Shown: in pieces, positions 7,696-46,367 of the stretch
Layout of the letters: the number at the start of each line of letters is the position of its first letter
How positions within the stretch are numbered: position 1 is the stretch's first letter
Source of the DNA: Lachnospiraceae bacterium
GTDB taxonomy: Bacteria; Bacillota; Clostridia; Lachnospirales; Lachnospiraceae
Length of the DNA: 47,204 nt
Direction of reading: 5' to 3'
Assembly (NCBI GenBank): GCA_017472605.1
Contig: JAFUPV010000045.1
Span: 1-47,204, forward strand
Position numbers and translations under genes: made by a program
The notes under the pieces: generated by a model
What the model was told of the DNA's origin: nothing
What the model saw: only the letters and a program-made list of their open reading frames with translations
Databases searched by the model: none

Positions 7696-8964
7696 TTATT
7701 CAAAAAGCACAGCCTGATAGGACACATCTTCTCCCTGATAAAGATGGTTCAGTACGATCTGCGGATCGCTGCAGTTCAGTACCTGTTCTTCACTGAAAAT
7801 GAAATAAACGTTATCGCTCGCCAATTCTGCAGCTGCCTCTTTCTCAAAGCGGTCCGCGATGTAGAGCGGAGCAGCCAGAAGCAGCAGCCTGGCGCAGCCA
7901 TCCTCATCGGAATAGGCAACCAGATTGTGGAGTGCCTGCTTCTGTGACGCGTCATCCAGACTTAAATAAGGTGTGCGGATCTCGCCATTCTTTCGCTCAT
8001 AATAGCGGCGGTCGTCCAGGCTGTTCATCGGATAATCACGAAGAAACACGATGCTTCTGGAACCGCTGTACTCCATCACTGCAGCAGGATAGATTTTCTG
8101 TCCGCTCCGGTCATATACATTAAATGAGTATGCCACATCACGTTCATCCAGATTTCGCGTAAATCCGTCATAGCTGGAGAGTGAGCCCGCCGTATAACCG
8201 GCTTTCGTCATCACATCAGCCAGATAATCCACAATAAAGGCATTTTTCATCCAGTAAAAATCAATCAGATCCGTGATATATTCCTCATTGGCATAGGCCA
8301 GATACTCCTCGGAAACCTTCAGGCAGATCTGATTGTCTCCCAGCAGCTCCAGGTCAATCGCTTCCGGATCCGATGCAAAATCCGCAATTTCCTGAAAATC
8401 TTCTCTCAGTTCCTCATTCAGCTGCGGATCGAAATTTACCAGCTCTGAATCATCATTGCTGTAAAACAGATTGTCGTAGATTTCATAGGCAGGCGCCAGA
8501 TACAGATACCTGCTGCCGGTCTCCTGAATCTGCGCAAATGCCTCATAGAGCGCCTCATCCACCGTGATCCGCTCATTGGGATGATGATTGATGTAATACA
8601 CATTATTCACACCTTCCTGAAGCTGATCATTATTAAATAGACGATATGCCTGTACGGACGCCTCCGTGTACAGCTTTTCAAGCGCTCTGCTTTCTGTTGC
8701 TGCGGAGACACCGCTGCTTCCGATATCATATAAAAAAACAAATTCTTCTCCGTAGTTCATCTCAGCAGACGAACTCACTTCAATTTCTCTCCAGCCGGAT
8801 TCTCCTCCAAGCCAGCCCGCAACCCCATAGGCAAGCGCACCGGCGCCAAGAAGCAGCAGCAGAACGACTGCCGCCAGCCTCACCTTCACATGTTTCTCGG
8901 AAAGTGAAACCTTTTCCACCGGCTTCACATTTGGTGTATTTCGATTCTTTACTGTTCGATTCAC
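7696..8964 (-). CDS. Membrane-anchored extracytoplasmic protein; remote ApbE-like look
   Basis: 422 residues from a GTG at 8962-8964, chosen because AAGGA lies 9 nt upstream; longer in-frame starts up to 9108 have no ribosome site and would cross a hairpin. A basic tail of about 29 residues precedes one membrane helix (LAAVVLLLLLGAGALAYGVAG), so the rest faces outside. The ectodomain order, a short strand plus ESRALEKLYTEASVQAYR, then DEALYEAFAQIQE, then a segment FIVDYLADVMTKAGYTAGSLSSYDGF, recalls the order of parts in ApbE flavin transferases. The metal-binding Asp and Thr motifs of ApbE and the DLGGIAKG motif are not evident. Function unknown; the ApbE relation is a guess. Confidence 0.6.
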   Translation of the reverse strand: MNRTVKNRNTPNVKPVEKVSLSEKHVKVRLAAVVLLLLLGAGALAYGVAGWLGGESGWREIEVSSSAEMNYGEEFVFLYDIGSSGVSAATESRALEKLYTEASVQAYRLFNNDQLQEGVNNVYYINHHPNERITVDEALYEAFAQIQETGSRYLYLAPAYEIYDNLFYSNDDSELVNFDPQLNEELREDFQEIADFASDPEAIDLELLGDNQICLKVSEEYLAYANEEYITDLIDFYWMKNAFIVDYLADVMTKAGYTAGSLSSYDGFTRNLDERDVAYSFNVYDRSGQKIYPAAVMEYSGSRSIVFLRDYPMNSLDDRRYYERKNGEIRTPYLSLDDASQKQALHNLVAYSDEDGCARLLLLAAPLYIADRFEKEAAAELASDNVYFIFSEEQVLNCSDPQIVLNHLYQGEDVSYQAVLFE

Positions 8965-9086
8965 TTCATTTCTTCCTTTTTTTCGTTCCATTCGTTGGGA
9001 ACGACTCGAATTAATACGGCTGGCAACACGACTCTGCACAGAACTCCCGCGCAGAGATAAAAAATTCGTGACCGCCATGCAGGCAA

Positions 9087-9115
9087 GGCTGCCTTGAGGT
9101 TTTCTCAAAGCAGCC
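9087..9115 (-). other. Stem-loop upstream of the membrane-anchored gene
   Basis: In minus-strand RNA GGCUGCUUUGAG pairs with CUCAAGGCAGCC over 12 positions with one U-G pair and a loop of five bases. No T-run follows. It may be a leader structure of the downstream gene or a second 3' hairpin of the peptide transporter operon. Confidence 0.45.
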
Positions 9116-9218: not shown

Positions 9219-10520
9219 TTATATCACTGCCAGGATCAGCAGGAAGGCAAAGATAAGAATGACAGCCAGAATGGTTACCAGACCGGCAATTGCACCTTTC
9301 TTACATGCCTTGTAGTTACGGATGTGATCGTGGCGTCTGAACAGAACAGCCGCGATCAGTCCAAATACCGGAAGGAAGAAGGACAGCAGAGAATACCAGA
9401 AGCTTCCGGTATCATGAACCGGCGGCAGCTTGTATTCATCCTCTCTGACCACACTCTCCTGCTGTTTTACTTCAGCCTGCGGGCTGTTCGGATCGTTAAT
9501 GGTAATCGGATGGAGCGGAACGCCCTTCTCACGGATTGCCTTGTACTCTTCAATCTCCTTCTCATTTCCGAATACATAGTGATCATGACCGATGTTTACC
9601 AATTTGGGCTTGTCTGTGCTGTAATCATGAACAGACGGGTCATAGGTGAAGAGAACTTTGTTCTTCTCCAGCTGCGGATCCGGGATGGGAATTGCGGAGA
9701 TCAGGGAGTGAGTATACGGATGAAGCGGATAGTCAAACAGCTCTTCCGCATCTGCAATCTCAACAATATCTCCTTTGTAGATAACACCGATACGATCGGA
9801 AATGAAACGGACGATGGACAAATCATGGGCAATGAACAGGTAAGTCAGTCCCTTGTCCTGCTGGAACTGCTTTAACAAATTCAGAACCTGTGCACGAATG
9901 GAAACGTCCAGTGCGGAAATCGGCTCGTCAGCTACAACCAGCTCCGGCTCCATGACCATTGCACGGGCCAGACCGATTCTCTGACGCTGACCGCCAGAAA
10001 ACTCGTGAGGATAACGGGTCAGGTGCTCCGGCAGAAGACCTACCTCCTCAATCATGTTTTCAACCTTCTTCACACGATCAGCTTCATTTTCAAACAGATG
10101 GAAATTGTACAGACCCTCCGAAATGATATAATCAACGGTTGCACGCTCGTTCAGAGACGCGGCCGGATCCTGGAATACCATCTGGATGTTACGGATTACT
10201 TCACGGTCCAGTGAATTGGAAATCTTTCCGGAAATCTTAACACCTTTATACTGGATCTCACCTGCTGCCAGCGGATTCACACGGATTACTGCTCTTCCGA
10301 TGGTAGTCTTACCAGATCCAGATTCACCTACAAGAGAGAATGTCTCACCTTTGTAAATATCAAAGGAAGCATTTTTTACTGCTCTGACTGCGTCGTCTCC
10401 CTTGCCGAATGTAATATCTACATTTTTCAATGACAGCAGGATCTCCCTGCCGTTTTCATCAATGGGTCCGTGCTCCGGCAGATGCTTCGCACGTACCCCT
10501 TCTTTCTCTTGCATAGACAC
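9219..10520 (-). CDS. amiF-like: Oligopeptide ABC importer ATPase, AmiF/OppF type, with membrane tail
   Basis: 433 residues. Starts at GTG 10518-10520, 9 nt after AGGAG; an ATG two codons later is too far from it. The ATPase core is complete: Walker A GESGSGKT at residues 65-72, Q-loop MVFQDP, signature FSGGQRQR, Walker B LVVADEP, H-loop IAHD, then the peptide-importer tail [14 protein letters not shown]. Streptococcal AmiF is about 308 residues, as I recall. Here a linker continues to two strongly hydrophobic helices at about 374-394 and 409-433, joined by a basic loop, so this subunit is probably tethered to the membrane. It is the last gene of the operon, 12 bp after the other ATPase. The tail is the oddity. 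Confidence 0.9.
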
Positions 10521-10532
10521 GATCGAAATCTC

Positions 10533-12281
10533 CTATATGTTAAACGCTTTCAACAGTTTCTCTGTAATATTCTGGATGCCCTCCGGTTTTTCAATCTTCG
10601 GAGCATGGGGATCCAGCAGCCATGTTTTCGCATAGTGAGTATCCGTGATTTTGAACATCGGCGGCTCAGCTACCGTATCGATCTTTAAGCAGTACGGATT
10701 TCTCGGTGCGAAAGCATCACCAGTAATGCTGTTATACAGGGACGGCGGGGTTCCTGTAATGGAATAGAGCTTTGTGTTTCTCTGTGCCAGCTGCGGCAGA
10801 GAGGAAAGCAGCGCCCAGGTATAGGGATGGCGCGGATCATAGAAGATTTCTTCTACTGTACCAAGCTCAACAATCTGTCCCGCGTAAAGAACAGCTACAC
10901 GGTCTGCCACATTGGCTACCACACCAAGGTCGTGGGTAATGAAAACAATGGTGTAGTTGAATTCCTTCTGCAGATCCTTGATCAGCTTCAGGATCTGCGC
11001 CTGAATGGTAACATCAAGAGCAGTTGTCGGCTCATCACAGATCAGAATCTTCGGCTGACAGGACAGAGCGATCGCAATTACGATACGCTGTCTCATACCG
11101 CCGGAATACTGGAACGGATAGTCATCGAAACGTGCCTCCGCGTTGGGAATTCCAACCTTTCTCATCAGTTCAAGCGCTCTTGCTCTGGCCTGTACCTCTG
11201 TACATTCCTGATGCTTCATGATGATAGAGGTAATCTGTTTGCCAATGGTAATAATCGGATTCAGAGAAGTCATCGGATCCTGGAACACAGTCGCGATTCT
11301 TGCACCGCGGATCTGATTCCAGTCCTTAGAATACTGAACCTTGGCCAGATTCAGGACACAGGTGCCATGCAGACTGTCGGAAGTCTCATCCAGATAACGA
11401 ACACGGAACGCAACGTTGTCAAACACGGCATTGCGCTCTTCGTCCTTTGACAGATCTACACCGATCTCCATCGCTTTTTTCAGCGCCTCCAGCAGCTTGC
11501 CGATCAGCTGCACACGCTTATTAAAACCATAGCGGCCAACAGAAAGGTAGATTTCCTTTGCAAGGATTTCATTTCTCTTTTTTGTATCGGAAGAGATTTC
11601 CTGATGGATCTCCTTCTCATAGGAAGCCCGAAGAGCCGTCATCTTCTCCTGATACTCCTTTAAATAGGAAGTATCGTGGGAAGCCTCGCTGTTCTTCGCC
11701 TTTGCAAGCTTCTCATAATTCTTTTTCAGTGCCTTGATCTGCGCATCCAGCTGAGCGATCTGGTGGGAAGTCTCTTTGATCTTATCTTTTTCCTTAGACG
11801 GATCAAAGGTCTGCTTCAGGTTGAAGGCTTCCGTTCTCTTCACTGTCAGCTCCCGGATCTCCTGCTCTGCTTTTTCCTTTTCTGCCTGACTCAGGCCCGT
11901 TCTCTCACGTTTTTCGGACTCCAGAGAAAGAATCTGACGATAGGTGGCTGCTCCCAGTTCAAGACGGGAATACTCATCCAGTTTATTCTTTGCATTGGCA
12001 ATCAGCTTCTGAGCAGTCGAAGTGACCTTTACAGTGGTATCTGCCAGATGCTCATCGTTAAAGAGAATCTGACCGTCACTGACAAAACCATTGGAATCCA
12101 GCATTCCGGCGAAGGTTTTGGTAAACACGGATTTACCGGAACCGGATTCACCTACGATTGCAATGGATTCATTTTCATAAATATCAAGGGAAACACCGCG
12201 GATCGCAGTCAGAATTCGTCCGCGCACACGGAATTTCACCTGCAGGTCTTTAATTGATAATAATACTTTCTTATCTTCCAT
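10533..12281 (-). CDS. amiE-like: Oligopeptide ABC importer ATPase, AmiE/OppD type, with coiled-coil insertion
   Basis: 582 residues against about 355 for AmiE. Walker A GESGSGKS is at residues 44-51 and the chain follows AmiE to about residue 83. About 230 extra residues, rich in Lys/Glu/Gln and alanine heptads (EKEKAEQEIREL, HQIAQLDAQIKALKK), then separate it from WNQIRGARIATVFQDPMTSL with the Q-loop near 334. Signature YSGGMRQR, Walker B ILICDEP and H-loop ITHD follow, and the C-terminal peptide-importer domain is intact (DPRHPYTWALLSSLPQL, TPPSLYN). The frame is open throughout the insertion with no sign of a frameshift. It should energise peptide uptake with the AmiF-like partner; the inserted helices lie near the Q-loop, which contacts the permease. 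Confidence 0.92.
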   Translation of the reverse strand: MEDKKVLLSIKDLQVKFRVRGRILTAIRGVSLDIYENESIAIVGESGSGKSVFTKTFAGMLDSNGFVSDGQILFNDEHLADTTVKVTSTAQKLIANAKNKLDEYSRLELGAATYRQILSLESEKRERTGLSQAEKEKAEQEIRELTVKRTEAFNLKQTFDPSKEKDKIKETSHQIAQLDAQIKALKKNYEKLAKAKNSEASHDTSYLKEYQEKMTALRASYEKEIHQEISSDTKKRNEILAKEIYLSVGRYGFNKRVQLIGKLLEALKKAMEIGVDLSKDEERNAVFDNVAFRVRYLDETSDSLHGTCVLNLAKVQYSKDWNQIRGARIATVFQDPMTSLNPIITIGKQITSIIMKHQECTEVQARARALELMRKVGIPNAEARFDDYPFQYSGGMRQRIVIAIALSCQPKILICDEPTTALDVTIQAQILKLIKDLQKEFNYTIVFITHDLGVVANVADRVAVLYAGQIVELGTVEEIFYDPRHPYTWALLSSLPQLAQRNTKLYSITGTPPSLYNSITGDAFAPRNPYCLKIDTVAEPPMFKITDTHYAKTWLLDPHAPKIEKPEGIQNITEKLLKAFNI

Positions 12282-12292
12282 GCCGGCTCCTC

Positions 12293-13261
12293 TTACATGT
12301 GTGTTCTCGGGTCTGACGCGTCACCAAGATTCTGACCAACAACATACAGTACAATTGTAATGATTGAAGAAACAACTACCGGGCTCCAGAACTCAAATCC
12401 CCATCCAGGAGTTACCATGGCACTCTCTGCCTCGAAGATCATTCGTCCAAGAGACATTTCCGACAGACCCATGCCAATATAGGCAAGGAACACCTCATAG
12501 GAGATGTATGACGGAATCTCTGTTGCAAGAAGAGTAACGATAACAGAAGTCATGAACGGGAGAATGTTCTTAATTGCAATCTTAATGGTAGAGGTTCCAA
12601 GACACTTGGACGCCAGATTGTACTCTCTGTCACGGATGATGATAACCTGGGTACGGATAAAGTACGCAATGCTCAGCCATCCGGTAATCGTAAGCGCAAA
12701 TACCATCGTTGCAAAGCTCGGTGTAAAGATCATGATGATAACAGAGATCAGAAGAACGTAGGGAATGTTTGCAAGTACATTGTAAACGTTCATCATTACC
12801 GCATCAACTTTCTTGGAAAATCCCCAGATGGATCCGATGACAACGCCGACTGTCATGTTGATGGCGGCACAGGCAAGAGCCAGAGAAATGGAAATTCTGG
12901 AACCAAACCAGATTGCGTCAAAGGTGGACTGACCGGCTGCACCGGAACCAAGAATCCAGTGAATATTGTAGCCCAGCTTATTCATTGCTTTTAACGGAGA
13001 CAGATGCTTTGCATCCGCATTCAGAAGGTTTCCGAATTTATCATAGTCGACAAACAGCGGATAGATATAAGCAAAAGCAATCAGAACCGCCAGAATTGAC
13101 AGAATGATGATGTTGCTCTTTTTACGAAAAAACACACGGAACACAGACTGCCAGTAGGAATATCTCGGTGCTGTAATTTTTTCAGATTCAAGGCTGCTGT
13201 GATCGACAAGGGTGAACAGCTCCTCTTCTGACATATTGAATTGCTTGAAATCATAATTCAT
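12293..13261 (-). CDS. amiD-like: Oligopeptide ABC importer permease, AmiD/OppC type
   Basis: 322 residues. A cytoplasmic N-tail of about 50 residues leads to a first membrane helix (NIIILSILAVLIAFAYIYPLF), an extracytoplasmic segment, then five further helices, as in OppC/DppC. The ATPase-contacting EAA-type loop is visible as YNLASKCLGTSTIKIAIKNI. The ATG at 13259-13261 lies 6 bp after the previous stop with a modest AGGTGATG site, suggesting translational coupling. It forms the transmembrane channel with the AmiC-like partner. Confidence 0.92.
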   Translation of the reverse strand: MNYDFKQFNMSEEELFTLVDHSSLESEKITAPRYSYWQSVFRVFFRKKSNIIILSILAVLIAFAYIYPLFVDYDKFGNLLNADAKHLSPLKAMNKLGYNIHWILGSGAAGQSTFDAIWFGSRISISLALACAAINMTVGVVIGSIWGFSKKVDAVMMNVYNVLANIPYVLLISVIIMIFTPSFATMVFALTITGWLSIAYFIRTQVIIIRDREYNLASKCLGTSTIKIAIKNILPFMTSVIVTLLATEIPSYISYEVFLAYIGMGLSEMSLGRMIFEAESAMVTPGWGFEFWSPVVVSSIITIVLYVVGQNLGDASDPRTHM

Positions 13262-13267
13262 TATTCA

Positions 13268-14839
13268 TCACCTGTCCTTCGTAGAGAATGAGATTCTCGG
13301 ATCTACCAGCGACATCAGAATATCACCAAGAATAACCGAAACCACCGTCAACAATGCGTAAAACAGTGTGACACCAACAATAACACCATTATCGTATTTA
13401 TTGATTGCCTCGGTCAGCAGATTACCTGCACCGGGAACGACATAAACACGCTCGGTAATGATCGCACCGGTCATCGCAAACAGCACGCTGCTGGGAATAC
13501 CGTGTACAACCGGAATGATCGCATTCTTCAGAATGTGCTTGGTGAAGATCTCGTTTTCAGACAGACCTCCGGATCTGGCAAACTTAACATAATCGGAATT
13601 CATCTGGTCGATCATGTAACGGCGCAGCCACTTCATCAGGTTTGCAATGGAAGGCAGTGCCAGAGAAACGATCGGCAGAATATACATTACTTTGCTGCTG
13701 GACTCCATGTCAAAGGTCGTCGGCAGACCTGCCAGACCGCCGATTGCCTTAAAGAGGAAGATGTAGGCAAGGGACGGAACCGCGATAATAAAGATAATGT
13801 AGGTCGTTCCGATTTTATCAATCAGCTTATCCTTCTTTCTTGCCATCATGATACCAATCGGCACACCGAGGAAATAGGACATGATAACTGCAAGGATACC
13901 GATTACAAAGGAATATCCGATTTTGGAAAGACCGCCTCTAACCGTATCAACCTTGGTATAGTCATCAACAAAACGATCCGCATATACCAGGCTGGAACTC
14001 TGGGATCCTGCCAGATATTTTGCAGTATGAAGATCATCCGCACTTTCTTCTACCAGTCCTGACGGATAGGTAATGGTGGATTTCACATAAGATCCCTGCG
14101 ATTTCGTCATTGTAGTGAATACATCAATTCCCTGATTTACCGAATAGGACGTTCCGAGGTTAATGGAAAGCAGATTCTGATGGATAAACGGGAACTTATT
14201 GTCAAAATAAAGCAGATACTTATTGTAAGTACCATTACCCATAATAGCCGGTGAAAATTTCTCACCGCCATATACAGGATCATATAAAGTAAAGGAAAGA
14301 CCGCGGTCTTCCAAGTCATTTTCTACGTAATTAATGTTATCAACTGTGATCAGTCCGGTAAAGTATGACCACAAACGCGAAGCCAACGGGAGATCCTTGT
14401 AGGCAAACAGCTGCTGCTGACCGCCGCTGGCCAGTTTCTTGCCGCCCATTGTTACAGCATCCATACGCTCAACCTTGTAGCCCATTGACTCGTAGTATTC
14501 TGTAAATTTTGCAACGTATTCTTTTACAAGATCGGAATCCTGCTCTTCTGTTCGTCCGAAGCCGACTGCACTTGCTCTCGTATCTTCATCAATCTCACCC
14601 TTCTGGGTAAGCTCCAACATATAGTCCGCATAGGTAACATAATCAAGATAACCGTACTCTTCCCATTTCTGGTACTTGTAGGTTACTTTCTGATTGTTGC
14701 TCTGATGGGTATAGGTGGTATCCTGTGCAAAGATCAGATTTCTGTCCAGCAGAGAATAGATCATTACCATTACAATTGCAACCACAATGACTACAGAAAA
14801 CAGTCCATACAATAAACGTTTTATTAAATATTTCGTCAT
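13268..14839 (-). CDS. amiC-like: Oligopeptide ABC importer permease, AmiC/OppB type, large ectodomain
   Basis: 523 residues from the ATG at 14837-14839. This start gives the family-typical N-terminus (MTKYLIKRLLYGLFS) and leaves the upstream hairpin outside the gene; the ribosome site (GAGAG) is weak, which fits lower expression than the binding protein. After the first helix (residues about 10-33), some 270 residues face outside, then five helices follow. Streptococcal AmiC has the same large loop, and KYLLYFDNKFPFIHQNLLSINLG closely matches what I recall of AmiC. The EAA loop is FARSGGLSENEIFTKHILKNAI. Together with gene order this places the system in the Ami subtype. Confidence 0.92.
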   Translation of the reverse strand: MTKYLIKRLLYGLFSVVIVVAIVMVMIYSLLDRNLIFAQDTTYTHQSNNQKVTYKYQKWEEYGYLDYVTYADYMLELTQKGEIDEDTRASAVGFGRTEEQDSDLVKEYVAKFTEYYESMGYKVERMDAVTMGGKKLASGGQQQLFAYKDLPLASRLWSYFTGLITVDNINYVENDLEDRGLSFTLYDPVYGGEKFSPAIMGNGTYNKYLLYFDNKFPFIHQNLLSINLGTSYSVNQGIDVFTTMTKSQGSYVKSTITYPSGLVEESADDLHTAKYLAGSQSSSLVYADRFVDDYTKVDTVRGGLSKIGYSFVIGILAVIMSYFLGVPIGIMMARKKDKLIDKIGTTYIIFIIAVPSLAYIFLFKAIGGLAGLPTTFDMESSSKVMYILPIVSLALPSIANLMKWLRRYMIDQMNSDYVKFARSGGLSENEIFTKHILKNAIIPVVHGIPSSVLFAMTGAIITERVYVVPGAGNLLTEAINKYDNGVIVGVTLFYALLTVVSVILGDILMSLVDPRISFSTKDR

Positions 14840-14862
14840 ATTTGTTCTCTCATCACATATTA

Positions 14863-14893
14863 CAGGAGAATGGCCCTGACGACCATTCTCCTG
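14863..14893 (-). promoter_or_regulatory. Intercistronic stem-loop after the peptide-binding protein gene
   Basis: CAGGAGAATGG (14863-14873) and CCATTCTCCTG (14883-14893) form a perfect 11-bp stem around 9 nt, between the binding-protein stop and the permease start. No T-run follows. Such structures commonly protect the upstream binding-protein mRNA; that role is inferred. Confidence 0.6.
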
Positions 14894-14936
14894 CAACTTC
14901 ATTTTTCCTATTTTAACAGGTAACGTGAATCAAATC

Positions 14937-17054
14937 TTAGAAGATACCGATACACTTAACCATGTATCCTGCGAAATCAGGCAGGAAGGTATCCAGATAA
15001 GTGGACGGATCACCGTAGTCCGGGCCCCAACCAGACAGATCATACATGTCATAGTTTGCCTCATAACCGTAATCGGTGTAATATCCAGCGTAGTACCACT
15101 CATTGTAGTCTACACACTCAACCAGGTTTACGATAACCTTGCCGCCAAGGGAAGCCTCTACGGACTGCTTGTAAGCGTTCTTCTGGTTTACATAAACTTC
15201 ACTGTTCATTGGTGTCGGAAGGTCGATGTAGATCGGGTTAGCCTCGTCGATAACGATTCCCTCTGCAGCCAGCTCTTCGATTGCGATCTCAAGCTCAGCA
15301 ACAGCGTTCTCAACGTTGTACCATCCGTCATAACCGTCACCGCTTCCGTTTCCGCCGTCAGCAGTCGGATCATAAGCCTTGATTGCAACGCCGTCAGCAT
15401 CGATCTGAGCCTGCATGATCACACCGTAGTTGGTGCCTGCCGGGAAGGTGGTCTCAGTTCCGTTGATATCAATGGTAACATCCTCTTCCAGAGTTACGAA
15501 GTTCCACGGAGTATAGGAGTTTCTCAGGGAGGTATACTTCAGATCCTCACCAACGGTCTGCGCATTGTAAGCACCTCTGTCAGCTGCGAAGGAGATCGCA
15601 CGGCGGAAGTGAACATTCATCAGAGCAGCGTTTGTTCTTGCAGCATCATCTTCTGTCTGCGGAGAAACAACAGTTGTCGGGTCAGCAACGTTTGCGAATG
15701 CGTTACGATTCAGGTTATAGAATCCCATGTAGGAAGTAGCGTTTGTATCGGATACATAGTGATACTGATCAAACCAGCCGTCTTCTACAGCAATCTCAAG
15801 AGTAGAGGAGTTCAGGTTGCAGCCATCGATAACGCCAGCCTTCATGTCATTGTAAGCCTTGGTAACGTCGGAACCGTCGTTGTACAGCCAGGTCAGAGTC
15901 TTAACATTTACAGCGTCCTTATTCCAGTAGGACTCATTTGCCTTGAACACGATGGTGTTCTTAGCGGTGGAGTTGGTTACCAGATACGGTCCGCAGTAAG
16001 CGATGGAGTTCGCATCCTTACCATAGGTGTAATCAGCTGCGGAAGCATCATACTCAAGACCGAACTTACCACCCTGGGACTCATAGTACTCTCTGCTCAT
16101 CGGAGCGAATACGCCATAACCGAACATGGTTGTGAAGTAAGTGCACGGAGCCTCAAGTGTGTACTCAAGGGTATAGTCGTCAACTGCCTTAACACCAACC
16201 TCAGCGAAGTCAGTGATCTCACCGTTGATGTACTCGTTTGCGTTTACGATAACGCCCTGTACCAGATACTCAAGTCCGCCCTGAGCATCCATCATGTGCT
16301 GCATACCTGCTACGAAGTCATCAGCAGTTACATCATCAACTTTTCTTCCCTGGGAATCTACCCACTCAACGCCCTCACGGATCTTCAGAGTGTAGGTCAG
16401 ACCATCCTCAGAAACCTCACAGGAAGTAGCCAGTGCCGGCTGCAGAACATTCTCATTGTCATACTCAAGCAGACCATCATAGGTATTGATGATTGCTTCA
16501 CTGTCAGCTGCACGGGAAGTAGCCAGAACGTCCCAGGTTGCCGGGTCGCTGGAGTAACCGATGCTGTAGGTATCCTTTAAGGTATAGCCCTTCTCCTCAA
16601 GATATCCCTTAGCCCACTCATTGTAGGTACCGGTTCCCTTAACCTCATACCACTTTGCCTTCATCTCAGCTCTGTCCTCAGACTTGATCGGCTCAGTAGT
16701 GATCAGGCGGCTGTAGTAACGCTCCCAGTCATTTCCCCAAAGAACAGAAGAATTGGAGAACGGAACAACTCTGGAGATTGCATACATACCACCCGGTGTG
16801 CTGGTTGGCAGCATTACTGCGGACTCCATCAGCTTTGCCTCGGCAACAGCCATCAGAGCAAACTTCTCGGAAACTGTATCAGCTTCCTTTGCGGTCATGT
16901 ACGCGTCATAGAACTCGCCCAGAACCTCATTGTAGATCTCAGTAGACTTCGCATAGTAAGCTTCAGAATCTACTTCTTCTGCGAACGCACCTGCGGACAT
17001 GGTCAGGCAGGTAGCAGCAGCCAGTGTCAGGCTCAACACTTTTCTCATCTTCAT
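14937..17054 (-). CDS. amiA-like: Peptide-binding protein (AmiA/OppA type), apparently circularly permuted
   Basis: 705 residues; ATG 17052-17054 after AAGGAGG. Signal peptide 1-25, probable cleavage AFA|EEV, no good lipobox (the only Cys is in AAATC). Residues about 26-155 (YYAKSTEIYNEV, SAVMLPTS, AISRVVPFSN, then AEMKAKWYEV) resemble the C-terminal end of AmiA, where I recall YDKLVDEA, SSLFIPAM, LSRIVPFTG and YDKAQEKWLKEK. The usual N-terminus starts only near residue 158 (TYSIGYSSDPATWDVL, then CEVSEDGLTYTLKIREGVEW) and runs in family order to GWGPDYGDPSTYLDTFLP, after which the chain stops, where relatives continue into the block found here at the N-terminus. The stop is not a frameshift artefact: only 97 bp separate it from the next gene and they contain a hairpin. 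It should capture oligopeptides for the AmiCDEF-like partners. Confidence 0.93.
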   Translation of the reverse strand: MKMRKVLSLTLAAATCLTMSAGAFAEEVDSEAYYAKSTEIYNEVLGEFYDAYMTAKEADTVSEKFALMAVAEAKLMESAVMLPTSTPGGMYAISRVVPFSNSSVLWGNDWERYYSRLITTEPIKSEDRAEMKAKWYEVKGTGTYNEWAKGYLEEKGYTLKDTYSIGYSSDPATWDVLATSRAADSEAIINTYDGLLEYDNENVLQPALATSCEVSEDGLTYTLKIREGVEWVDSQGRKVDDVTADDFVAGMQHMMDAQGGLEYLVQGVIVNANEYINGEITDFAEVGVKAVDDYTLEYTLEAPCTYFTTMFGYGVFAPMSREYYESQGGKFGLEYDASAADYTYGKDANSIAYCGPYLVTNSTAKNTIVFKANESYWNKDAVNVKTLTWLYNDGSDVTKAYNDMKAGVIDGCNLNSSTLEIAVEDGWFDQYHYVSDTNATSYMGFYNLNRNAFANVADPTTVVSPQTEDDAARTNAALMNVHFRRAISFAADRGAYNAQTVGEDLKYTSLRNSYTPWNFVTLEEDVTIDINGTETTFPAGTNYGVIMQAQIDADGVAIKAYDPTADGGNGSGDGYDGWYNVENAVAELEIAIEELAAEGIVIDEANPIYIDLPTPMNSEVYVNQKNAYKQSVEASLGGKVIVNLVECVDYNEWYYAGYYTDYGYEANYDMYDLSGWGPDYGDPSTYLDTFLPDFAGYMVKCIGIF

Positions 17055-44873: not shown

Positions 44874-46367
44874 ATGATGAAAAAGTTTACCGCACTTGCA
44901 CTTGCCGCATGTATGACCGCATCCCTGACATCCGGTGTCTGGGCCGACGAAGAAAAGACCGATCTGGTGATCGCTGTTGACGCTGATGTAGATACCCTGC
45001 ACCCGTCAGACTATTCCACCACAGTTGAGCTGAACATCCTGAATCAGATCTATGACACACTGATGTACATGAATCCGGACGGAACTCATGAGCCAGAACC
45101 GCGAATCGCAGAATCCTATGAAGTCAGCGAGGACGGACTGGAGTATACCTTCCATTTAAGAGAGGATGCCACGTTCCACGATGGTACTCCAATTACTGCC
45201 GATGATGTTGTTTTCTCCTTAAACCTTTACCTGGAATCTGAGTATCAGAACACGCAGGTAACCGGTCTTTCCGAGGCTGAAGCCGTTGACGATTACACAG
45301 TTGTCTGTCATCTGGATACACCATATGCTCCGTTCATGCTTGGTGTCTGCACTGCACACATCGCTTCCAAAGATTACTATGAGGCATCCGAGGAAGATTT
45401 TGTCAGCAAACCAATCGGAAGCGGTGCTTACCAATTCGTTGACCGCAATACCGGAAGCAGCATTGTTCTGGAAGCTTATGATGAGTATTACCGCGGCGAA
45501 GCAGCTATTGAGAACGTTACCTTTGAGGTGATCCCGGATCAGTCAACCATGGCAATCGCTCTTCAGACCGGTGACATTAATTTCGCTGAGATTGACTCCG
45601 CAAGCCTGATTCAGCTGGAGTCCGATCCGTCGATTTCCGTTGCCAAGGTAAGCACCTCTTCCTTCGCCTACGTTACCATGAACACAGAACAGGCTCCGTT
45701 TGATGATGTAAAAGTCCGTCAGGCAGTCAACTATGCGATTGACCGTGAAAACATTGTTTTTGTCTGCTTTGAAGGCGAGGCAACGGCAAACTCCAACCTC
45801 TGCTCCACAGACCGTTTCGGCTATTCTGAAGAGCAGCCGGTTTATGACTATAATCCGGAGAAGGCAAAGGAACTCCTTGCAGAAGCAGGAATTACCACAC
45901 CTTATGATCTCGGTGAGATCCTTGTTGCGGAAAAGTATTCCAACCTTGCAGCCGTGATCCAGAATGATCTGAAACAGGTTGGCCTGGAAACCACCATTTC
46001 CGTTAAGGAATTCAACGCGTACATTGAAGACCTGACCAGCGGCAACTATGCACTCAGTGCCCTGAACATGACACTGGAAGGCGACACCCAGATGATGGAG
46101 ATGGCTTTCACCACAGACTACATCGGCACTGCTAACAACGCAAGATATTCGGATGAGGAGATGGATGAGCTGTTCAATCAGACCCGAATCACCGCCGATA
46201 AGGAAGAACGTGCCAAGCTGTTTGATCAGATCTTTACCAAGGCTCAGGAAGAAGCAATCTATGCTCCGCTTTGCAATCCGCTGATCCTGTTCGCATACAA
46301 CGCAGATCTGAAATGTCCGGAAATCGCATATGAAGGCAGCTACTTCCTCTACGATTTTGAATGGTAA
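44874..46367 (+). CDS. Family-5 ABC substrate-binding protein (Dpp/Opp type), canonical order
   Basis: 497 residues; AGGAGG lies 7 nt before the ATG at 44874. Signal peptide about 1-24 with possible SPase I site VWA|DEE; alternatively LAAC at 10-13 could act as a lipobox, though the hydrophobic stretch before it is short. Family-5 hallmarks are NILNQIYDTLMYMNPDG, ESYEVSEDGLEYTFHLREDATFHDG, VRQAVNYAIDRENIV, and a full C-lobe with YSDEEMDELFNQTRITADKEERAKLFDQIFTKAQEEAIYAPL. Unlike the permuted protein at 14937-17054 its segments are in the usual order. Substrate is probably a peptide or glycopeptide, given the neighbouring peptidase and hexosaminidase. Confidence 0.93.
   Translation: MMKKFTALALAACMTASLTSGVWADEEKTDLVIAVDADVDTLHPSDYSTTVELNILNQIYDTLMYMNPDGTHEPEPRIAESYEVSEDGLEYTFHLREDATFHDGTPITADDVVFSLNLYLESEYQNTQVTGLSEAEAVDDYTVVCHLDTPYAPFMLGVCTAHIASKDYYEASEEDFVSKPIGSGAYQFVDRNTGSSIVLEAYDEYYRGEAAIENVTFEVIPDQSTMAIALQTGDINFAEIDSASLIQLESDPSISVAKVSTSSFAYVTMNTEQAPFDDVKVRQAVNYAIDRENIVFVCFEGEATANSNLCSTDRFGYSEEQPVYDYNPEKAKELLAEAGITTPYDLGEILVAEKYSNLAAVIQNDLKQVGLETTISVKEFNAYIEDLTSGNYALSALNMTLEGDTQMMEMAFTTDYIGTANNARYSDEEMDELFNQTRITADKEERAKLFDQIFTKAQEEAIYAPLCNPLILFAYNADLKCPEIAYEGSYFLYDFEW

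Follow-up and report, generated by a model that had tools for sequence, protein, structure and literature searches.

The oligopeptide-binding lipoproteins AmiA, AliA, AliB, AliC and AliD of Streptococcus pneumoniae (PDB 8a42, 8qlj, 8qlh, 8qlc; PMC11192437) are built on a two-lobed plan that is laid out for AliD in the structural report: Domain I comprises residues 29-63, 191-296 and 583-617, Domain II residues 64-190 and Domain III (lobe 2) residues 297-582, helix alpha19 spans 622-652, and Asp501 binds the amino end of the peptide, while residues 524 and 528 of AmiA line pocket P2 (PMC11192437). A natural change of chain order has been described for another binding protein, TpMglB-2 (Tp0684; 'Type Ic / Cluster Bc'), a permuted glucose-binding protein of cluster B, whose relatives occur in spirochaetes and Gram-positive (many gut) bacteria and are probably tethered, and for which the report raises anchoring as a possible driver of permutation (PMC4990184). 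Here we analysed a stretch of 47,204 nucleotides of a Lachnospiraceae bacterium (contig JAFUPV010000045.1; hereafter the window), in which the protein encoded at 14937-17054 is, with a probability that we put at about 0.87, a natural circular permutant that serves an Ami-type oligopeptide importer as its substrate-binding protein. Natural permuted binding proteins being already known from TpMglB-2, what appears to be new here is the family-5 peptide-binding case.

The window protein resembles its pneumococcal counterparts in family and predicted body fold, in the Trp and the amine-binding Asp of the GWxxDY motif, and in an operon that holds AmiC with a large extracellular part, AmiD, AmiE and AmiF. 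It differs from them in that the last ~125 residues come first, the termini would lie in lobe 2 and not in lobe 1, the helix at residues 125-138 is shorter than the 30-residue alpha19 and leads into a joint, AmiE carries an insert of ~225 residues, and a standard lipobox is missing. The comparison with TpMglB-2 is one of contrast: there, according to the report, the hinge needs to be crossed a fourth time and strands found at the N-terminus of E. coli MglB are placed close to the C-terminus (PMC4990184), whereas here a family-5 peptide binder has its C-terminal block at the front and the two crossings would be kept; homology to cluster B sugar-binding proteins was not found among the Pfam matches of the window protein up to E 1. 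The best NCBIfam model was that of the Mycoplasma-type OppA MMSYN1_0169 (NF043077, 896 positions; 132 bits, E 2.7e-38), far under its cut-off of 650; its two matched stretches stand in normal order (model 48-135, then 260-497) with the block unmatched, and we rejected a link to Mycoplasma OppA through this model, as those stretches bear no sign of permutation. Full-text searches on permutation within one literature library turned up, among the papers listed, no natural permutant of an OppA/AmiA-type protein; the permuted binding proteins met there were mostly engineered sensors, TpMglB-2 being the sole fixed natural case. A second, independent case, kept with its operon in gut Clostridia, would offer a natural test ground for whether the tethered lobe matters, and comparison tools that assume one chain order take such a chain for a binding protein that lacks its tail and bears a front part they cannot explain.

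Exchanged order of the chain segments

The original prediction, made from the sequence alone, held that the residues behind the signal peptide correspond to the C-terminal end of AmiA-type proteins and that the block missing from one end is the one gained at the other. The motifs on which it relied (SAVMLPTS, AISRVVPFSN and AEMKAKWYEV) stand where it placed them, and profile-profile comparison of the permuted alignment with 22 canonical proteins bears out the order: residues 159-694 pair with canonical 42-531 (E 1.6e-99), residues 43-156 with canonical 553-667, the C-terminus (E 2.3e-11, with a second, block-specific match at E 3e-14), and signal peptide residues 1-19 with canonical 8-26 (E 0.0013). 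Judged by these alignments, permuted and canonical chains are built of the same three pieces in different order, with each segment present once. The sole Pfam match up to E 1 was SBP_bac_5 (PF00496) at residues 204-692, with 142.5 bits versus a cut-off of 32.4. In a phmmer search against all PDB sequences, AmiA, AliB, AliC and AliD were all paired in exchanged order; for AmiA, query 162-690 matched chain positions 15-497 and query 54-141 matched chain positions 534-624, AliB and AliD behaved likewise, and AliC showed the exchange in three stretches. The block stretch is weak alone (11-18 bits), yet it is equally placed in all four Ami structures, and blastp aligned residues 47-135 with residues 644-730 of a canonical protein of the same genus (L088; E 2e-7).

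A hidden Markov model (HMM) of the block, made from residues 36-150 of 59 permuted proteins, was searched against 690 open reading frames (ORFs) of at least 300 residues from 129 loci. It matched 106 of them at E<=1e-3, all of which also match the family-5 body; the other ORFs were unmatched up to E 10, as were the reversed canonical sequences (0/22). The 106 comprise 83 permuted rows (81 distinct, since the window gene is present twice, as L001 and L094, and L067 equals L109), in which at least 371 residues come after the block match, and 23 canonical proteins, in every one of which the match stops 2-15 residues short of the C-terminus (E 5.6e-14 to 6.3e-4). Another 20 family-5 frames match the body only; most of these encode shorter proteins of the OppA type, and a few are cut. 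The early stop that had been predicted is also there: the window protein ends 18 residues past DPSTYL and 13 residues past TYLDTFLP, whereas canonical chains run on for 124-145 residues past a DPxTYL-like motif (17 proteins in which the motif was found). Permuted chains with the motif end 16-20 residues past it (75 of 80 rows), the remaining five rows have similar ends, and the last residue is Y, F or W in 68 of the 75. Because the segment order is exchanged with respect to canonical proteins, the window protein is, on alignment grounds, best filed in a permuted clade derived from the AmiA/AliA family and not as an ordinary member; the Ami-specific C-terminal segment is present, but N-terminally placed, and the marks of a circular permutant are found together, namely two segments of one parent in exchanged order, each once, in a frame that is open and conserved.

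The other family-5 protein in the window (44874-46367, plus strand), which has an AxA-type signal peptide, had been put forward as an internal control; it is NikA/DppA-like and not of the Ami type. The canonical AmiA-type paralogue that this genome encodes on a different contig (G000:C9; L002/L139) serves better as a control. It shares with the window protein the family and the operon order A-C-D-E-F but has the normal chain order, a permease frame of 317 residues without a match to the extracellular part and an ATPase frame of 357 residues without insert; among the 23 canonical proteins, however, it gives the weakest match to the block (E 6.3e-4).

Predicted fold, lobes and anchoring

An AlphaFold2 model with a predicted local distance difference test (pLDDT) value of 92.7 and a predicted template modelling score of 0.89 gives the protein the usual two-lobed clamp as its predicted fold. 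Model residues 159-705 overlay AmiA 33-533 and AliD 29-526, with the first strand of the mature protein at 162-167; the block (30-138) by itself found no convincing structural match, and the ranges of block and body are complementary. Transfer of the AliD limits through the phmmer alignment (chain position + 25 = residue number) would assign residues 30-87 to lobe 2, 88 to about 441, joint included, to lobe 1, and about 442-705 again to lobe 2. The permuted chain would then have an unbroken lobe 1 inserted in lobe 2, with both termini in lobe 2, and the canonical chain a lobe 2 inserted in lobe 1, with both termini in lobe 1, the hinge being crossed twice in either order. Residues G156 and Y157 of the joint are invariant in 59 permuted rows, and D679 is conserved in 98% of them. 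The nearly fixed length of the new C-terminus suggests that it is constrained; the equivalents of AmiA 524 and 528 sit 5-9 residues ahead of it (model residue 705 corresponds to AmiA 533).

In the chain as we read it, the signal peptide is followed by the block that is C-terminal in AmiA/AliA, with the rest of lobe 2, the third piece of Domain I and the start of alpha19. The joint of ~22 residues comes next, and the mature sequence then begins, as in canonical proteins, with its first strand and would stop within lobe 2, just behind the amine-binding motif. With no canonical segment lost or doubled and a clamp of the usual kind predicted, peptide binding and the feeding of the AmiC-D-E-F machinery would be expected to persist. 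Both new ends fall in lobe 2 by alignment, and for that reason the N-terminal anchor has probably shifted from lobe 1 to lobe 2; this anchor, which in many relatives is a lipid, would fix lobe 2 in place, and lobe 1 would become the free lid.

A lipobox and a stretch rich in A/E/T/D/S precede the block in many relatives, with counts from two simple patterns that differ at the edges: 56 of 83 rows by one pattern, in which wrong starts cause misses, and 66 of 80 by a looser one that counts the AATC of the window protein too. The window copy has an AGAFA-EE signal, L012, L013, L025 and L074 likewise have ends resembling signal peptidase I sites, the near relatives L015, L016, L017 and L038 carry a Tat-like RRDFLK in the place of the lipobox, and L055 has an N-terminal hydrophobic helix. 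Because the signal ends differ to this extent, the mode of holding appears to vary within the permuted clade, and the window protein may be released or otherwise held. A longer tether was also considered as proof of the new anchor place. From the Cys to the fold there are 15-89 residues in 56 permuted lipoproteins (counted to where the block match begins, which is a few residues into the first helix) and 8-42 in 15 canonical Ami-type lipoproteins (counted to the start of the body); this argument is weakened, with lineage as a confounder, because long distances (28-34) also occur in three of four canonical lipoproteins from the same bacterial family.

Distribution, origin and alternative explanations

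A scan of genome contigs yielded 67 relative loci at 45-75% identity, most of them from metagenome bins. The block-then-body order, whose conservation the original prediction had left to be searched for, is kept in 66; the remaining locus (L069) is cut at residue 214 and uninformative. By record titles the 66 include Roseburia inulinivorans DSM 16841 and Butyrivibrio sp. INlla14, and by bin labels the others are mainly Lachnospiraceae, Oscillospiraceae and other Clostridia, with single bins labelled Spirochaetaceae (L057), Acholeplasmatales (L068) and Bacillales (L063). Whole-genome samples, which overlap, gave permuted genes (E<=1e-60) in 14 of 397 genomes for the family, 5 of 391 for the class and 2 of 398 for the phylum, the gene being split across two contigs in one of the 14 (G485); two genomes of the same genus, G001 (98% complete) and G002 (84% complete), gave non-permuted matches only. 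The distribution is thus patchy, via transfer or loss. Tandem copies occur in two loci, L017 and L038, where the permuted gene is preceded by another copy of itself that is cut.

In a quick tree of 109 rows, with permuted proteins represented by their bodies alone, all 69 permuted rows fell on one side of a branch with a Shimodaira-Hasegawa-like approximate likelihood ratio test support of 99. A careful tree of 49 rows that included the block and was rooted on the OppA type supported the permuted clade at 100/100 and nested it among the canonical Ami proteins; the nearest canonical rows (L099, L122 and L129) are joined by a branch that is not fully supported (96/76). The basal branch of the clade is L116/L141. 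Because there is one clade with a near-identical break point, the data fit a single permutation event. Of these rows, L099 (in region L136) and L122 (in region L137) lie in operons with an AmiC frame of 498-500 residues that matches the large extracellular part of the window AmiC, but the OppB frames of L139 and L140 (317-338 residues) do not match that part, so the permuted lineage most likely derived from an AmiC-type system with a large extracellular part; an AmiC match was not found within the stretch read of L138, which holds L129.

The block might have been an unrelated added domain that resembles the Ami tail, with a truncated binding protein behind it, and Pfam indeed has no model over the block, which also lacked a convincing structural match when taken alone. 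Its profile, however, matches the canonical C-terminus in the profile comparisons and in 23 canonical proteins, is silent on the other ORFs and on the reversed controls, and has a blastp counterpart in the canonical protein of the same genus, so that what the prediction named as its possible undoing is very improbable. The metagenomic source of most relatives would likewise suit an assembly error or a decaying gene, in which the end of a broken amiA was mis-joined in front; against this stand the order, the near-identical break and the open frame in 66 of 67 loci, those of R. inulinivorans and Butyrivibrio sp. INlla14 included, besides the conserved joint and the C-terminus of nearly fixed length, by which the idea is refuted for practical purposes.

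With a natural permutant as the preferred reading, its origin would most likely lie in one event, in which an amiA gene was duplicated in tandem, the copies were fused in frame and the product was trimmed; this is the usual route to circular permutation. Alternatively, the C-terminal segment could have been cut out and pasted behind the signal peptide without duplication and trimming: no double-block intermediate was found among the 690 ORFs, and the signal peptide is still at the front, for which duplication alone needs a further deletion. We consider this course rather unlikely, given the usual route and the existence of tandem copies of the permuted gene, even if the two loci are mutually close relatives. 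It is improbable, too, that the protein has left transport to act as a sensor or peptide buffer, an idea to which the extra insert of the operon ATPase, the second, canonical Ami operon of the genome and the four loci without an adjacent permease (L024, L056, L060 and L071) lend some colour; of the 60 permuted loci whose downstream sequence reaches 1.8 kb or more, 56 have an AmiC-like gene next, all four Ami relatives (C, D, E and F) follow in 49 of the 52 with 5.2 kb or more, there on the same strand, and in the basal L141, and the amine-binding Asp is retained.

The operon and its features

The insert of the operon ATPase was matched in 51 of the 54 permuted loci in which both ATPase parts were found, in some of them in a shorter form (~150-165 residues), the exceptions without a matching insert being L028, L036 and L058; the ATPase of the basal L141 is of equal length, with an insert too divergent for a match at E 1e-3. 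In the canonical operons L136, L137, L139 and L140 the two ATPase parts are contiguous and the insert is absent, from which it follows that insert and permutation largely co-travel. It is tempting to propose that the permutation was selected for swapping the tethered lobe, with lobe 2, which reads the amino end of the peptide, pinned at the membrane and lobe 1 as the lid, that the aromatic C-terminus of near-fixed length, next to the equivalents of the P2 residues, tunes peptide choice, and that these traits and the ATPase insert, which occurs in nearly the same operons, would mark a separate Ami class in gut Clostridia, parallel to and independent of TpMglB-2 in a similar ecological setting; we offer this proposal tentatively, as possible but not probable. 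The features of the locus are collected in Table 1.

Table 1. Position of the binding-protein gene, the parts of its product and the operon within the window
Feature	Position	Strand	Remarks
AmiA/AliA-type oligopeptide-binding protein, probable circular permutant	14937..17054	minus	705 aa; starts with ATG; free of internal stops
Signal peptide, residues 1-25	16980..17054	minus	ends AGAFA; weak AATC, no standard lipobox; pLDDT <50
Displaced block, residues 30-138	16641..16967	minus	homologous to canonical C-terminal segment (AliD about 525-635)
Block part assigned to lobe 2 / Domain III, residues 30-87 (AliD to 582)	16794..16967	minus	putative mapping from alignment and PMC11192437 limits
Block part assigned to lobe 1 / third piece of Domain I, residues 88-124 (AliD 583-617)	16683..16793	minus	putative mapping
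Helix, residues 125-138, likely counterpart of the alpha19 start	16641..16682	minus	alignment, model, PMC11192437
Joint of old C- and N-termini, residues 139-160	16575..16640	minus	~22 residues; KGTGTYxEWAKxYLxEKGYTLKD-like; helix 144-154
Body, residues 161-705	14940..16574	minus	canonical mature N-terminus up to break in Domain III
GWGPDYGDP, residues 675-683	15006..15032	minus	D679 aligned with AliD Asp501
New C-terminus, residues 698-705	14940..14963	minus	probably near AmiA E524/T528 equivalents, pocket P2, by numbering
Intercistronic stem-loop, binding protein/permease	14859..14897	minus	17 bp; -28.8 kcal/mol, z -7.85
AmiC-type permease, large extracellular part	13268..14902	minus	likely start 14839, MTKYLIK
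AmiD/OppC-type permease	12293..13261	minus	
AmiE/OppD-type ATPase	10533..12281	minus	582 aa, split by insert
Charged insert in ATPase, ~225 aa	11367..12041	minus	between Walker A part and rest; coiled-coil-looking by eye
AmiF/OppF-type ATPase	9219..10520	minus	

The stem-loop between the first two genes may keep the binding-protein mRNA in excess. Rfam gave nothing at gathering score in the whole window, and a promoter scan of the window found 3 candidates versus 4.7 expected from shuffles, hence no excess. The operon is followed at 7696-9108 (minus strand) by a gene for a 470-residue protein whose N-terminal segment is hydrophobic and for which Pfam gave no match at E 1e-4; a relative of this protein also follows the operon in L143 (41%) and in the basal L141 (28%).
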